From Rhodothermus sp. (GTDB lineage Bacteria; Bacteroidota; Rhodothermia; Rhodothermales; Rhodothermaceae): DNA of 53,140 nucleotides. The stretch is taken from the NCBI GenBank assembly GCA_015487635.1, contig WFPM01000119.1, positions 1 to 53,140 of the forward strand, given 5' to 3'. The notes beneath the pieces are model-generated. The model was not told the origin of the DNA. It was given only the letters and a program-made list of their open reading frames with translations, and searched no databases. Shown here piece by piece: positions 65 to 14,646 of this stretch. The translations under genes and the position numbers were made by a program. The stretch's first letter is position 1, and each line of letters starts with the position of its first letter.

Positions 65-151
65 GCCCGGGTGGCGGAACTGGTAGACGCGCATGATTCA
101 GGGTCATGTGGGGGCAACCCCGTGGGGGTTCGAATCCCTCCCCGGGCACCA
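65..151 (+). tRNA. tRNA-Leu (anticodon CAG), type II with long variable arm, CCA encoded
   Basis: Acceptor stem GCCCGGG/CCCGGGC, anticodon stem-loop CATGA-TTCAGGG-TCATG, variable arm, T-loop GGTTCGAATCC, terminal ACCA. Confidence 0.95.
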
Positions 152-5714: not shown

Positions 5715-8794
<3,080 letters not shown>

Positions 8795-8798
<4 letters not shown>

Positions 8799-9703
8799 AC
8801 AATGAATCGGCCTCCCGGACCGATCCGTTCCTGCTGGCCCAACTCTACCGTCAACTGGGCCGGTTCCTCCTGGATGGTCGGGAAGCCACGATCCGGCAGT
8901 TTATTACCCGGCTGCCGGAGTTGGTCGAAGGGCTTGCGGAGACCGATCCGGAAGCGCTGGCCGTCGATCACTATCAGGTGCTGGGACGAGAAGTGCCCCC
9001 CTACGCCAGCGTGTTCTGTGAAGCCGACGGGCGCGTGGGCGGCAGCGTGACCGAAGCCTACCATCGCCTGTATCTTCAGGCAGGCTTCGCCCTGGATCCA
9101 CGGGCTGAACCGGCCGATCATCTGGGGCAGATCCTGTATTTCCTGGCGTTCTGTCTGGAGCGGCAGACACCCGCATGTCGGCGAGTGGCCGGCCAGCTAT
9201 TGCATGGCGAACGGCTCGCATGGCTACCGCTTTTTGCCTTTGCCGTGCAGCGGCAGCAGGTGCCCTTCATCGAACGCGTGGTCCAACTGATTGCCGAACT
9301 GATTCGGCTGCATGGCACCCTCGTCCCTGCTTCCGAACAGTCTGGAACGATAGGCCAGGTGGACCCGGCCATGCCGGGACCTGAGGATGACCTGGCTGCT
9401 CTGGCGGCTTATCTGACCACGCCTATCCGCTGTGGCTTTTTTCTGAGCCTGTCGGACCTGCAGCAACTGGGACGTCAACTGGACCTCCCCGTCGGCTTTG
9501 GCCGGCGGAGGCAGGTGCTGGAGTCGCTGCTGCATACGGCCGCCCTGCATGGTCGATCCTGCGCGCTCCTGGAAGCCCTGCTGGCCCTGGTGGAAGAGTG
9601 GCGGCAGTACCTTCAAACGCAGCCGGCGGCCGCACAGCGCTGGCTGGACCGTCTCGAAGCGACGCGCGCGCTGTTACAGACAGCCTGCACGTTGATGAAT
9701 TGA
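8795..9703 (+). CDS. TorD/DmsD-like molybdoenzyme maturation chaperone
   Basis: ATGA overlap with the molybdoenzyme; all-helical; YHRLYLQAGFALDPRAEPADHLGQILYFLAFCLER. Confidence 0.75.
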
Positions 9704-9789
9704 TTATTAATACCTCAGTTGTTGAAGAACCTGTAAGGTAACTGCAGGGCGTATCGCCTCGCATCGAATGACACCAACGATCCGGAGCG

Positions 9790-12225
9790 ATGCGGGCGCA
9801 ACTGCAGTTGAAAATCGGGGGGATGGCCTGCTCCTTCTGTGTGCAGGGGATTCAGCAGACGTTGCGACGTATCGAGGGCGTCGAGGAGGTGCATGTCAGT
9901 CTGGCCCACGAAGAGGTGCTGGTACGCTACGATCCGGATCGTGTCGCGGAACGACAGATCCGCCGGGCTCTGGAGCAGATGGGCTATACCATTCGGGATC
10001 CGGATCGGCTCCGGGCCTATGAGGAGGCGGAGGAAGAGTTGGCCCGACATCGACGTCGTCTGCTGGGAGCGGCCGGGCTGACGGCCGGTGCCCTGGGGTT
10101 GATGGTGGCCATGTGGAGCGGCTACCGTCCGGCCTGGATGCCCTACGCGATGCTGGGGCTGGCGCTGCTGACGCTGCTGGGGCCCGGCGGCTATATCCTG
10201 CGCATGGCCTATCACTCCGTGCGGCGCGGGATTCTCAATCAGCATGTGCTGCTGGAGCTGGCCGCGTTTGCCGGACTGGGCGGCGGGGTAGCCGGACTCT
10301 TTTCGCCCGTATTCCCGGCCGGAGAGTTTTTCGGCGTGACGGTCTTTGTGACTACCTACCATGTGCTTTCGGGCTGGGCTTCGGCGCTGGTGCGCATCCG
10401 GGCTTCCCGGGCCATTCGGCATCTGCTGGACCTACAGCCGGCAACCGCAACCCGGCTGACTCCGGAGGGGCAAGAGGAGGAGGTACCGGTGAGCCAGATT
10501 CAGGTGGGGGATCGCGTCCGGATCCGCCCCGGCGAGCGCATTCCGGTGGACGGCGTGGTGCGTGAGGGCGAGACGGAGGTAGATGAAAGTCTGGTGACCG
10601 GCGAGTCTATGCCGGTCGTCAAACGGCCGGGCGACAAAGTGGTAGGCGGGGCCATCAATCAGACGGGCAGTGTGGTGGTCGAGGTAACCGCGGTGGGCGC
10701 CGACACGTTTTTGCAGCAGGTGGCCCGGCACATTGAGGAGGCGCGCGCCATGAAGCCGGGCATTTTACAGCTGGTAGATCAGGTGTTGCGTTACTTCGTG
10801 CCCGGAGTCATCGGGATCGCCCTGCTGGCGCTGGTGATCTGGATCCCCGGTGCCTGGCTGCTGACCGGTCAGGCGCAGCCAGCGCGCGGGCTGTTTGCCA
10901 TGCTGGCCGTGCTGGTCATGGGCTATCCCTGTGCGCTGGGGATGGCCACGCCGCTGGCGCTGATTCGCGCGGGGGGCGAAGCCGCACGTCGGGGCATTCT
11001 CTTTCGAGCCGGCGAGGCGTTCCAGGTGCTTTCAGAGGTGCATGTGCTGGCTTTCGACAAGACCGGTACGCTGACCCACGGACGCCCTGAGGTCGTGGCC
11101 ACGTGGTCGCTCGTCGGCGATGACCGGTGGCTGGCCCTGGCCGGAGCCGCCGAGGAAGGATCGGAGCATCCGCTGGGACGGGCCATCGTACGGTTTGCGC
11201 GGCAGCGCATCACGTCCTGGCCACAGGCTACCGATTTTCAGGCGGTGCGTGGAGGAGGGATCGTGGCCACCGTGGAAGGACGCGAGGTGCGCGTGGGGAG
11301 TCTACCGTTCTTGCGTCAGACGCCGGAAGGAGCAGCCCGGCGCTGGGTGGCCACGCAGGAGGCGCAGGGACGCACGGTAGTCGGCGTGGCCGTAAATCAG
11401 CGACTGGTCGGACTGCTGGCTCTGGCCGATCCGATCAAGGAAGACGCGGCGGCCACCCTGGCGGCTTTCCGGCGTCAGGGCTATCGGTTGCTCATGCTGA
11501 CCGGCGATGCCGAAGCCACGGCTCGGGTCGTGGCCCGGCAGGCCGGTATCGACGAAGTCCTGGCCCGGGTCAGCCCTGAGGAAAAGGCGGCACGTATCCG
11601 GGCCCTTCAGCAGGAAGGACTCCGCGTGGCCATGATCGGTGACGGCATTAACGATGCCCCGGCGCTGACGCAGGCCGACGTCGGCATTGCGATGGGGACC
11701 GGCACCGACATTGCCATTGAATCGGCCGACGTCGTGGTCATGGGGCACCGCCTGCAGACCCTGCTGGATGTGTTTCAACTGGGGCAGGAAGCCTATCGTC
11801 GTACCAGACAGAACCTGGCGCTGGCCTTCAGTTTCAACGGGATCGGCGTGCCGTTGGCCGTGACCGGCTGGGTGCAGCCCGTCTGGGCGATGGTTGCCAT
11901 GGTCGCCAGTGTGTCGGCCGTGCTGTTGAACGCATTTGTCCGTCCGCTTGGTCGGCGCCCTGCTGCTATGCCGCCGATCCGGTGGACCTTCGTCGTTCCG
12001 ACCATGCGTTGCCATCACTGTGCGGAAGCCATGCAGCAGGCGCTCCGGCGTCGCTGGCCTGACGTGCAGGTATCGGCCGACCTGGCCACCCACCGGATTA
12101 CCGTGGAGGGCCCGGTATCGCCGGAGGGCGTACAGGAAGTGCTGGCCGAAGTCGGCTTCCAGGGCGAGCCGGTCTTACCCGGGGAGCCCGTGGTAGCGCA
12201 GGAGGCTGTTCATTCCCAAAACTAA
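9790..12225 (+). CDS. P1B-type heavy-metal-transporting ATPase with N- and C-terminal HMA domains
   Basis: [26 protein letters not shown] in the transport [26 protein letters not shown]-terminal [11 protein letters not shown]. Confidence 0.9.
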
Positions 12226-12242
12226 ACGACCGGGATACTGCC

Positions 12243-12638
12243 ATGCAGCGTGCTGTTTCCTGGCGGGAGCGATTGATCGGGGTGCTGGCGTTGTTTACAT
12301 CGGGGGGAACGCTGATCTGCTGTGCGTTGCCCGCGGCGATAGCGGCGCTGGCCGGAGGGGCGGCCGTAGCCTCGCTGGTCGCGACGTTCCCCTGGCTGGT
12401 TCCACTTTCGCAGCAGAAAGACTGGATTTTTCTGGGCGCAGGCGGTCTTTTGTTACTGAACGGTCTCCTGGTGGTTCGTCCGCAGAGCCAGCTGGTCTGT
12501 CGAATTGCCGGCGGCACGGCCTGCCAGGTGGCCGGGCGCTTTACGCGCGTGACGTTCTGGGTAGCGCTGGGGATCTACAGTATTGGTGCCTTTTTTGCCT
12601 ATGCATTGACACCCCTGCTTCGCTGGCTGGAAAGCTAA
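12243..12638 (+). CDS. MerT-like small integral membrane metal transporter
   Basis: Three predicted TM segments, vicinal Cys pair in TM1 (LICCALPAA), Cys pair in the TM2-TM3 loop (VCRIAGGTAC). Confidence 0.6.
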   Translation: MQRAVSWRERLIGVLALFTSGGTLICCALPAAIAALAGGAAVASLVATFPWLVPLSQQKDWIFLGAGGLLLLNGLLVVRPQSQLVCRIAGGTACQVAGRFTRVTFWVALGIYSIGAFFAYALTPLLRWLES

Positions 12639-12652
12639 AATCGACCGAAACC

Positions 12653-13399
12653 ATGCAACAAGCCAGGTGGATGATCGGCGGACTGCTGGGCCTTGTGCTG
12701 ATGGTGCCCGTTGGTCTGGAGGCGCAGGCCCAGGGGCTTCCTTCCTTTCGCCATGAGCCCATTTTCGGATTGGGACCCCGCACAATCTGGCAGGGCGGCT
12801 GGGGCATCGAAGTCGGGGTGGATCGGGACCGGACGGTACGGGAAGACCGATGGGCGCTGGAGTATGAAGCGCTTTACGGGCTGACGGTCAACTGGGCCAC
12901 CACCTTCGTGTTTCACCAACCCCTGGATGGGACGCCAGTTGAGTTTTCTGTGCGCAGCAAGTACCGGTTCTTTCGCAAAGATGTTTATGGCGGTGTCTAC
13001 CACACCGCCGTGCTGGGGGGTGTGGTGCTGGCAGAAGGAGGAACGACGCCGCGAGCAGTGTTGCTGGGGCTTTCAGGAGCCTACGAAGGCCGACGGTGGT
13101 TGCTGTTCCTGACCGGGCGCCAGCGACTGGGCCACCGGCCGGTGGCACGTTACGACGTGGCGCTGGGACTGCGGCCGATTTTAACCGGTTATTACCAGCC
13201 AGACCTGGTCGTTATGGCTGAGGTGAACGGCCAGTTGTTCCGGGATCCCTTCGATCATCGCGTGCTGGGGGCCGTCGGGTTCTGGCTGACCTATCGAAAC
13301 TGGGCCTTCAAGCCCGGTCTTCAGTGGCCGCTGTATCGCCGTCGAAGTGGGGAGCCGCTTCGATATCGATGGGTTGGATCGGTAGAAGTTCATTTCTGA
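12653..13399 (+). CDS. Outer-membrane beta-barrel-like protein
   Basis: Signal peptide; alternating aromatic beta-strand pattern; ends in RYRWVGSVEVHF (terminal Phe, OMP-like). Confidence 0.6.
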   Translation: MQQARWMIGGLLGLVLMVPVGLEAQAQGLPSFRHEPIFGLGPRTIWQGGWGIEVGVDRDRTVREDRWALEYEALYGLTVNWATTFVFHQPLDGTPVEFSVRSKYRFFRKDVYGGVYHTAVLGGVVLAEGGTTPRAVLLGLSGAYEGRRWLLFLTGRQRLGHRPVARYDVALGLRPILTGYYQPDLVVMAEVNGQLFRDPFDHRVLGAVGFWLTYRNWAFKPGLQWPLYRRRSGEPLRYRWVGSVEVHF

Positions 13400-13419
13400 A
13401 CAACCAGACGAGCAGAACG

Positions 13420-13782
13420 ATGCGACAGGGTATGCGAGCCGTCCTGAGTATTCTGATCCTGTGGGCGGGCCTGGGTTTCTTGACGGCCCAGGGACAATCC
13501 CGGGTGCCCGCGCCGGACGCTATCCTCTACGTGAAAGGACTGGCTTGTCCCTATTGCGCCTATGGGCTGGAAAAGAAACTGAAGAAGCTGCCATTTGTGC
13601 AGGAGGTCGAGGTGCAGATGGACGAAGGTCGGGTACTGGTGGCGTTTCGGGAGGGGCAACGTCCCGAACCGGAGACGTTTGCGGAGCAGGTAGCCGAAGT
13701 GGTCAAAGCGGCGGGCTTTACCCTGGAAAAAGTAGCGTATCCTGCCGGACAGCATAGCAAGCGCAGAAAGGATGGATCATGA
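13420..13782 (+). CDS. Secreted heavy-metal-associated (HMA/MerP-like) protein
   Basis: Signal peptide then ILYVKGLACPYCAYGLEKKLKKLPFVQEVEVQMDEGRVLVAF. Confidence 0.8.
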   Translation: MRQGMRAVLSILILWAGLGFLTAQGQSRVPAPDAILYVKGLACPYCAYGLEKKLKKLPFVQEVEVQMDEGRVLVAFREGQRPEPETFAEQVAEVVKAAGFTLEKVAYPAGQHSKRRKDGS

Positions 13783-13843
13783 AGGGAGGGCACGCGTACG
13801 CTGAAAAGGTTGCTTTTCTTCATCACCCATTCCCGGAGGAGCC

Positions 13844-14176
13844 ATGATGGTACGCATGTTTTTGCTGGTGGCCTTATTGATGGGGCTGGGAGGCGTCGCC
13901 TATGCACAGGAGACGGCGGCCCCGGATACCACGCAGGCCGACGCGGTTGTTTACATGAAGGGGCTTTCCTGTGAGAAGTGCGCCGAAAGCGTCTCCATCG
14001 AATTGAAGCGCGTGGAAGGCGTGGCCGAGGTCAAGGTGTTCCTGGAGACCCCGCAGCGCGCTTTGTTGACGCTCAAGGAAGGGGCTGAAGTGACCGAGGA
14101 GGCGCTCCGCAAAGCCGTAGAGCGGGCCGGTTTTCAGGTAGAGCGCGTTGCGTTTCGGCCACAGAAATCTTCATAG
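13844..14176 (+). CDS. Secreted heavy-metal-associated (HMA/MerP-like) protein
   Basis: Signal peptide MVRMFLLVALLMGLGGVAYA then VVYMKGLSCEKCAESVSIELKRVEGVAEVKV. Confidence 0.8.
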   Translation: MMVRMFLLVALLMGLGGVAYAQETAAPDTTQADAVVYMKGLSCEKCAESVSIELKRVEGVAEVKVFLETPQRALLTLKEGAEVTEEALRKAVERAGFQVERVAFRPQKSS

Positions 14177-14178
14177 GT

Positions 14179-14646
14179 GTGCGGCAGGGACTGACGCGGA
14201 GCGAGCTGGCCCGTCGGGCGGGCGTTCGTCCTTCTACGGTTCGCTACTATGAGCAGCTGGGACTGCTTCCCGCACCGGCGCGGACGGCGGGGGGCTATCG
14301 CGTCTACACAGAGGACGATGTCGCCCGCCTGCGCTTTATCCGGCGGGCACAGGCGCTGGGTTTTTCGCTGCGTACCATTCGCGAGCTGCTCCAACTGGAG
14401 GCATCCGGAGGGCAAACCGCCGAGGTGGTACGTGCGCAGGCGTTGCGGCATCTGCAGGAAGTGCGCCGGCGCCTTCAGGATCTGCAGCGCCTCGAAGCGG
14501 TGCTGGCCCGGTTGGTAGCGGCCTGCTCGGCGCGTCGCGGGAGAGGCTGTCCGATTCTACAGGCGCTGCAGGGTACCGACCCGCTTCCCTACGTCTCGGA
14601 TGTTTCTGACGCGGATGTTTCTGCTCCGGGTACGGCGCTGAGGTAG
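14179..14646 (+). CDS. MerR-family metal-responsive regulator
   Basis: GTG start; ELARRAGVRPSTVRYYEQLGLLPAPARTAGGYRVYTEDDVARLRFIRRAQALGFSL; C-terminal ACSARRGRGCPILQALQG. Confidence 0.88.
   Translation: MRQGLTRSELARRAGVRPSTVRYYEQLGLLPAPARTAGGYRVYTEDDVARLRFIRRAQALGFSLRTIRELLQLEASGGQTAEVVRAQALRHLQEVRRRLQDLQRLEAVLARLVAACSARRGRGCPILQALQGTDPLPYVSDVSDADVSAPGTALR

Follow-up and report, generated by a model that had tools for sequence, protein, structure and literature searches.

How might metal ions be carried across both membranes of a bacterial envelope by a compact set of genes that resembles a mercury resistance locus but lacks MerA? This question is raised by six collinear genes at positions 9790-14646 on the + strand of contig WFPM01000119.1 from Rhodothermus sp. 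(assembly GCA_015487635.1; 3.03 Mb in 233 contigs). The whole stretch of 53,140 nucleotides that was analyzed is referred to here as the window. The genes encode a P1B ATPase, a MerT-like inner-membrane protein, an outer-membrane beta-barrel, two secreted HMA-domain proteins, and a MerR-family regulator. An original prediction, made from the letters of the DNA, had described them as a Mer-like metal cluster that lacks MerA and is built around the ATPase, the barrel, and the two HMA proteins, and had proposed a metal relay across the envelope. Open reading frames (ORFs), Pfam domains, and identity with congeners all agree with the six collinear genes, none of which encodes MerA.

For most bacteria, the way in which copper passes the two envelope membranes is poorly understood, and a compact barrel-carrier-permease set accompanied by copper-type regulators offers a named candidate for each crossing step. 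We propose that the operon deals with soft metal ions, most likely Cu(I), at every layer of the envelope, and place the chances of this proposal at about even.

A three-gene core linked across phyla

Comparison of relatives suggests that the core of the system consists of the MerT-like protein, a secreted HMA carrier, and the outer-membrane barrel, which would provide one protein for each layer of the envelope. At 51 of 54 scored loci from several phyla, the MerT-like gene has HMA and barrel genes within 2.5 kb on its own strand; the figure rises to 52 of 54 if L070 is included, where the HMA reading frame failed only on a length filter. The two exceptions, L033 and L057, stop at contig ends. 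This set combines 50 loci from one scan of a genome collection with four fetched relatives, and it holds a few duplicates of one genome (e.g. L022 and L028). Among 399 proteobacterial genomes forming an unselected sample, the MerT-like gene occurs in six; one is the center of the sample (G469), which was picked for having the module, and the other five (5/5) all have both partners. Within the window's own class, the gene is present in 15 of 245 genomes. The module is rare, scattered, and tightly linked.

These counts lend support to the relay that had been proposed. The related expectation that the order of the barrel, HMA, and MerT-like genes would be conserved held for their linkage, but not for the order itself, which varies across phyla. 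Both this variation and the difference between barrel types would suit a collection of co-located tolerance genes that lack functional coupling, but the persistence of the three-gene linkage over several phyla makes such an explanation barely credible. A search of open-license PMC papers, with subscription journals outside its reach, found no description of the barrel-HMA-MerT set. Each part has known relatives; the set as a whole is widely conserved and apparently undescribed.

The inner- and outer-membrane components

The MerT-like protein carries the two cysteine pairs to which the original prediction had drawn attention, a vicinal pair in the first transmembrane segment (TM1) and a second pair in a later loop, as is characteristic of MerT. 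All four residues (C26, C27, C86, and C94) are invariant among 46 aligned homologs, which share the motif FTSxGTLICCALP in addition to the two loop cysteines. Pfam and NCBIfam searches give the window protein no MerT (PF02411) match, and this profile is reached by 3 of the 46 relatives (best 2.8e-5). An hhalign comparison with the MerT part of same-class MerTP fusions returns 93.4% probability over 58 columns only, with CC and the first loop cysteine aligned. Judged by these comparisons, the family would be related to MerT only remotely. Hydropathy indicates membrane segments at residues ~10-56, 60-80, and 103-126, and the positive charges reside in the N-terminus and the cysteine loop. This distribution is consistent with a cytosolic location for the N-terminus and the C86/C94 loop, as in MerT. 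The structure model (pLDDT 66.7) is too weak for a fold search, and a PDB sequence search yielded nothing useful. In the window's own genome, the family profile matches this gene only. The possibility of a plasmid-borne mobile resistance module was rejected after a tblastn search of 72,556 plasmids with the window protein gave no match.

The barrel, previously only inferred, is modeled by AlphaFold with 12 strands (pLDDT mostly 80-92 over residues 50-248). Foldseek ranks FapF and the COG4313 channel 4rl8 highest and lists PcoB lower; query-normalized TM-scores for these matches are moderate (0.41-0.60), and the resemblance would speak for a fold class rather than a function. The COG4313 protein of known structure is described as probably conducting hydrophobic molecules (PMC4493636). 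The window protein has no Pfam match, PF13557 included, and a PDB sequence search with it gave nothing useful; 6 of 17 aligned relatives do match PF13557. Alpha- and betaproteobacterial copies of the module encode a second, smaller barrel type, which likewise has no Pfam match and is remotely homologous to the first (85%). As for the periplasmic components, Pfam identifies an HMA domain in both secreted proteins, with CPYC in HMA1 and CEKC in HMA2, as had been noted along with the MerR-like regulator.

The ATPase as a lineage-specific addition

The ATPase, one of the parts around which the original prediction had built the cluster, does not occupy a central position. It was considered as a member of the core and rejected, being absent from the operon of the congener G003 and from most relatives. 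The protein itself is as had been described, with E1-E2 ATPase and Hydrolase domains and HMA stretches at both ends (residues 7-67 and window positions 11986-12159), which carry CSFC (14-17) and CHHC (741-744), respectively. What had gone unmentioned, along with a conserved upstream DNA block, is that the CPC metal motif expected of P1B-1 CopA proteins in the metal-site helix is altered, with tyrosine in place of the first cysteine (Y379-P380-C381, or YPC). The ATPase nevertheless matches the TIGR01511 subfamily with 470.5 bits (cut-off 397), and its best PDB matches are copper ATPases. It combines YPC with an N-terminal GM(A/S)CSFC HMA domain, the features that define a YPC clade, and in a tree it joins the YPC ATPases of Balneolaceae, Deinococcus, Leisingera, and haloarchaea with support of 100/100. 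The genome encodes a normal CPC-type CopA elsewhere, which falls outside this clade, and therefore the operon ATPase is probably not the housekeeping copper exporter.

The stricter motif YPCALG-ATP is found in 6 of 245 class genomes, each of which belongs to the 15 that carry the MerT-like gene, and the ATPases are located close to that gene (Fisher p 1.8e-8, a value that ignores kinship, the six genomes representing two lineages). Two further members of the clade, with YPCAVG (L041 and L114), are also near the module. The G003 operon has no ATPase gene but retains the upstream block, and a search of the whole G003 genome at a strict limit gave no ATPase match. Because in this class the motif occurs only in module genomes and the operon can exist without the gene, the ATPase is a partner specific to the module and yet one that can be dispensed with.

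A link between YPC ATPases and the module outside the window's class was rejected. The YPC pattern matched 5 of 399 proteobacterial genomes, of which only the preselected center G469 has both, and three of the four non-center loci showed no ATPase reading frame. The association is supported mainly near Rhodothermota and Balneolota. At the fourth non-center locus (L174, in G853), a gene run (MerR, CcdA-like, a 504-aa protein, and the YPC ATPase) has HMA (CPFC) and COG4313-type barrel genes ~3 kb downstream, and no MerT-like gene was seen there. The run itself resembles that of the Leisingera plasmid L150. Other YPC ATPases have neighbors of various kinds. A DUF7482-like exported protein is encoded beside them in Fodinibius (L035:7325-7891, by Pfam match) and on a Deinococcus plasmid (L151:7228-7788, by eye), and a haloarchaeal plasmid (L152:2734-7259) carries a YPC ATPase near merA.

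Copper or mercury

Several features of the module and its neighbors must be considered in assigning a metal. When aligned with 5crl, the window MerR has no cysteine at C82 and a metal-binding loop one residue shorter (CX7C vs CX8C), and thus it lacks the C82, C117, and C126 arrangement with CX8C of mercury-responsive MerR. A two-cysteine CX7C loop without C82 is the arrangement of CueR.

Of 33 loci with the second barrel type, 20 have, as the gene immediately preceding the barrel, a small exported ORF with a cysteine motif and a C-terminal PP, versus 3 of 825 control ORFs. The rule applied demands fewer than 150 aa, a signal peptide (by a crude hydrophobicity rule, with alternative starts allowed), PP in the last 15 residues, a close downstream gene, and a close cysteine pair. 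A first count that required CxxC or CxxxC gave 7 of 33; the rule was widened to any close cysteine pair after a CCC motif had been seen in Hyphomonas, and the control figure is from a recount under the wider rule. These ORFs fit the published rule for CutF-like ORFs and resemble CruR, and both kinds have been shown to sense copper (PMC9426467, PMC9973294). At three further loci (L048, L049, and L073), CsoR genes adjoin the barrel directly upstream. The L048 protein, the only one scanned, matches PF02583 with 94 bits, and its C-(25)-H-(4)-C spacing, read from the sequence, is that of Cu(I) sensors. By inspection, CusCBA-type genes are located downstream of the module in L041, and an SCO-like gene is convergent to it in L062 (Hyphomonadaceae).

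The literature on YPC ATPases adds to this picture. CopAL6, a metagenomic copA-like protein, combines the YPC trimer with an HMA domain at each end; in E. coli without copA, it made the cells less tolerant of copper and led to more copper accumulation than any other gene tested (PMC11082258). The Sulfolobus solfataricus CopA, verified for copper, also uses YPC (PMC4541151).

A number of observations weigh on the other side. The window MerR is closer overall to Tn501 MerR (101.9 bits) than to CueR (69.5 bits), and its 113 bits against the CueR equivalog TIGR02044 are under the cut-off of 147.4. The MerR proteins of Balneolota modules retain all three MerR cysteines. DUF2946 matches of the small upstream ORFs reach 13-17 bits, below the Pfam cut-off of 23.7, and some ORFs have none. 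Genes for ArsR, MerTP, and a disulfide reductase lie downstream of the module in L095 and L119, and MerTP-MerA genes are directly downstream in one relative (G437, locus L114). Finally, MerA is present in 8 of 15 module carriers vs 27 of 230 other class genomes (p ~2e-4, kinship ignored).

On such grounds the module could be viewed as a mercury accessory system, namely a second MerT/MerP-like uptake route feeding a MerA encoded elsewhere, a view that the proximity of MerTP in Balneola and Fodinibius and of merA to a haloarchaeal YPC ATPase would also favor. The original prediction had regarded a merA gene elsewhere in the same transcript as evidence against its relay, and this concern proved half justified. 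The window's genome does encode MerA (contig C40), but in an independent ArsR-MerTP-MerA operon with a true MerTP; in G437 the module does sit directly ahead of such genes. Since a MerTP is already part of this MerA operon, MerA also occurs in congeners that do not have the module, several module carriers have no MerA above the cut-off, the window MerR lacks C82, and proteobacterial copies have CutF- and CsoR-type regulators, the accessory system is distinctly improbable. Mercury as the plain answer was likewise set aside as the leading explanation, given the separate MerTP of the MerA operon and the absence of C82.

Copper is favored because of the CutF/CruR-like ORFs, the CsoR genes, the two-cysteine site of MerR, the CusCBA and SCO neighbors, and the YPC literature. 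The module most likely moves copper rather than mercury, and in our judgment copper is considerably the more probable of the two, although the module might serve either soft metal depending on lineage. The label Mer-like was a poor guide to the metal, as the resemblance to MerT is remote and both regulators and literature point to copper. If copper is correct, the MerT fold gains a second metal, and likeness to MerT/MerP alone would be poor ground for calling such loci mercury resistance.

A model for metal flow

The gene set, its conserved linkage, the barrel model, the invariant cysteines, the ATPase family, and the sensor cysteine pattern are shown by the analysis; the choice of copper, the direction in which it moves, each transfer from one protein to the next, and the binding of the operator are inferred. 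The outer-membrane barrel would let metal through or dock a carrier, and the secreted HMA proteins would ferry metal in the periplasm. The MerT-like protein may then hand metal from C26/C27 to C86/C94, inward by analogy with MerP and MerT. The YPC-type CopA relative, added in this lineage, would pick up metal from the cytosol with its HMA domains and return it to the periplasm, where it could be disposed of or supplied to copper enzymes. Induction of the operon in response to metal would fall to the MerR protein.

A presumed MerT ancestry and the barrel family suggest, by analogy, that flow is inward, and the MerR- and CsoR-type sensors suggest a role in tolerance. Sensors of these types normally switch on resistance genes, and sensors that respond to high copper suit detoxification better than import, which counts against the inward route. 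CutF-like ORFs precede import as well as export genes in published surveys. Copper efflux could accommodate the sensors: the ATPase would export cytosolic Cu(I), the HMA proteins collect it, and the barrel release it, with the MerT-like protein serving in docking or export instead of import. This scheme would also fit the cusCBA genes that neighbor the module in L041, and the fact that only some members of the genus have the module, as would be expected of an accessory tolerance trait. However, most module copies have no ATPase nearby, MerT relatives import, and CopAL6 increased copper accumulation and sensitivity rather than decreasing them (PMC11082258). Efflux is somewhat unlikely. A broader and tentative proposal, to which we give a little less than an even chance, is that the module represents a previously unnamed, phylum-crossing copper transport system in which three small proteins span both membranes, controlled by copper sensors of no fewer than three unrelated types (MerR/CueR-like, CsoR, and CutF/CruR-like small ORFs).

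Operon layout and surroundings

The six genes (Table 1) are separated by successive gaps of ~18, 15, 21, 62, and 3 bases and probably constitute one operon. They are 71-90% identical in congeners, and therefore none is a chance ORF. The upstream block is mostly invariant across four congeners, G003 included, and a sigma-70 promoter scan of the operon upstream region found no match.

Table 1. Features of the metal-handling locus, in window coordinates
Feature	Position	Strand	Basis
Conserved upstream block (TGAAGAACCTG..AG.TAACTGCA..CGTA), candidate promoter/MerR operator	9723..9753	+	Congener comparison; putative function
YPC-type P1B ATPase, 811 aa, HMA at both ends (CSFC, CHHC), DKTGT and GDGIND motifs	9790..12225	+	Pfam, motifs, tree
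MerT-like inner-membrane protein, 131 aa, C26C27 in TM1, C86/C94 in positively charged loop	12243..12638	+	Alignment, hydropathy, probable remote MerT homology
Predicted outer-membrane 12-stranded beta-barrel, 248 aa, COG4313/FapF-like fold	12653..13399	+	AlphaFold, Foldseek; PF13557 in 6/17 relatives
Secreted HMA carrier 1 (HMA1, GLACPYC), counterpart of core-module HMA gene	13420..13782	+	PF00403 35 bits; conserved adjacency
Secreted HMA carrier 2 (HMA2, GLSCEKC)	13844..14176	+	PF00403 39.2 bits; 73-77% identity in congeners
MerR-family sensor without MerR C82, CX7C loop as in CueR	14179..14646	+	MerR_1 and MerR-DNA-bind (Pfam), alignment

The 3' end of the MerR gene overlaps a convergent sulfate permease gene. 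Directly upstream of the operon (window 5715-9703) are genes for a PhsA/DmsA-like molybdopterin oxidoreductase and a TorD-like chaperone. Among the congeners, G003, G004, and G006 carry the oxidoreductase, but nothing closely matching it occurs in G001, G002, or G005, and these three are also without the MerT-like gene, so that the oxidoreductase and operon stretch forms a variable region. A tRNA-Leu (cag) gene is found near the left end (window 65-151). Among the relatives, the genes that adjoin the module at L095:13433-15988 and L119:10497-13093 encode ArsR, a MerTP fusion, and a flavin disulfide reductase (GTCALRGCDPKK) without the C-terminal cysteine pair of MerA.

Comparison with known systems

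Four known systems can be compared with the module. CopAL6 and the Sulfolobus CopA share the YPC motif with the ATPase, and CopAL6 also the HMA domains at both ends, a likeness drawn from published descriptions rather than residue by residue; the available portions of those descriptions report no envelope partners. Copper operons controlled by CruR or CutF (PMC9426467, PMC9973294) likewise have a small ORF directly upstream, as in proteobacterial module copies, but the neighbors named in the available portions are TonB transporters, CusABC, a multicopper oxidase, and PCuAC, and the barrel-HMA-MerT set is not named there. The COG4313/PF13557 channels (4rl8, SphA, and TcpY) and FapF, which share a 12-stranded barrel and include the top Foldseek matches, differ in that known members are linked to hydrophobic uptake (PMC4493636) or amyloid secretion rather than metals. 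The Tn501-type mer operon offers a small inner-membrane protein with vicinal cysteines in TM1 and a loop cysteine pair, a secreted HMA partner, and a MerR-type sensor. In contrast, the window protein falls outside the MerT family profiles, its operon is without MerA, its sensor is without MerR C82, and an outer-membrane barrel is its constant partner.

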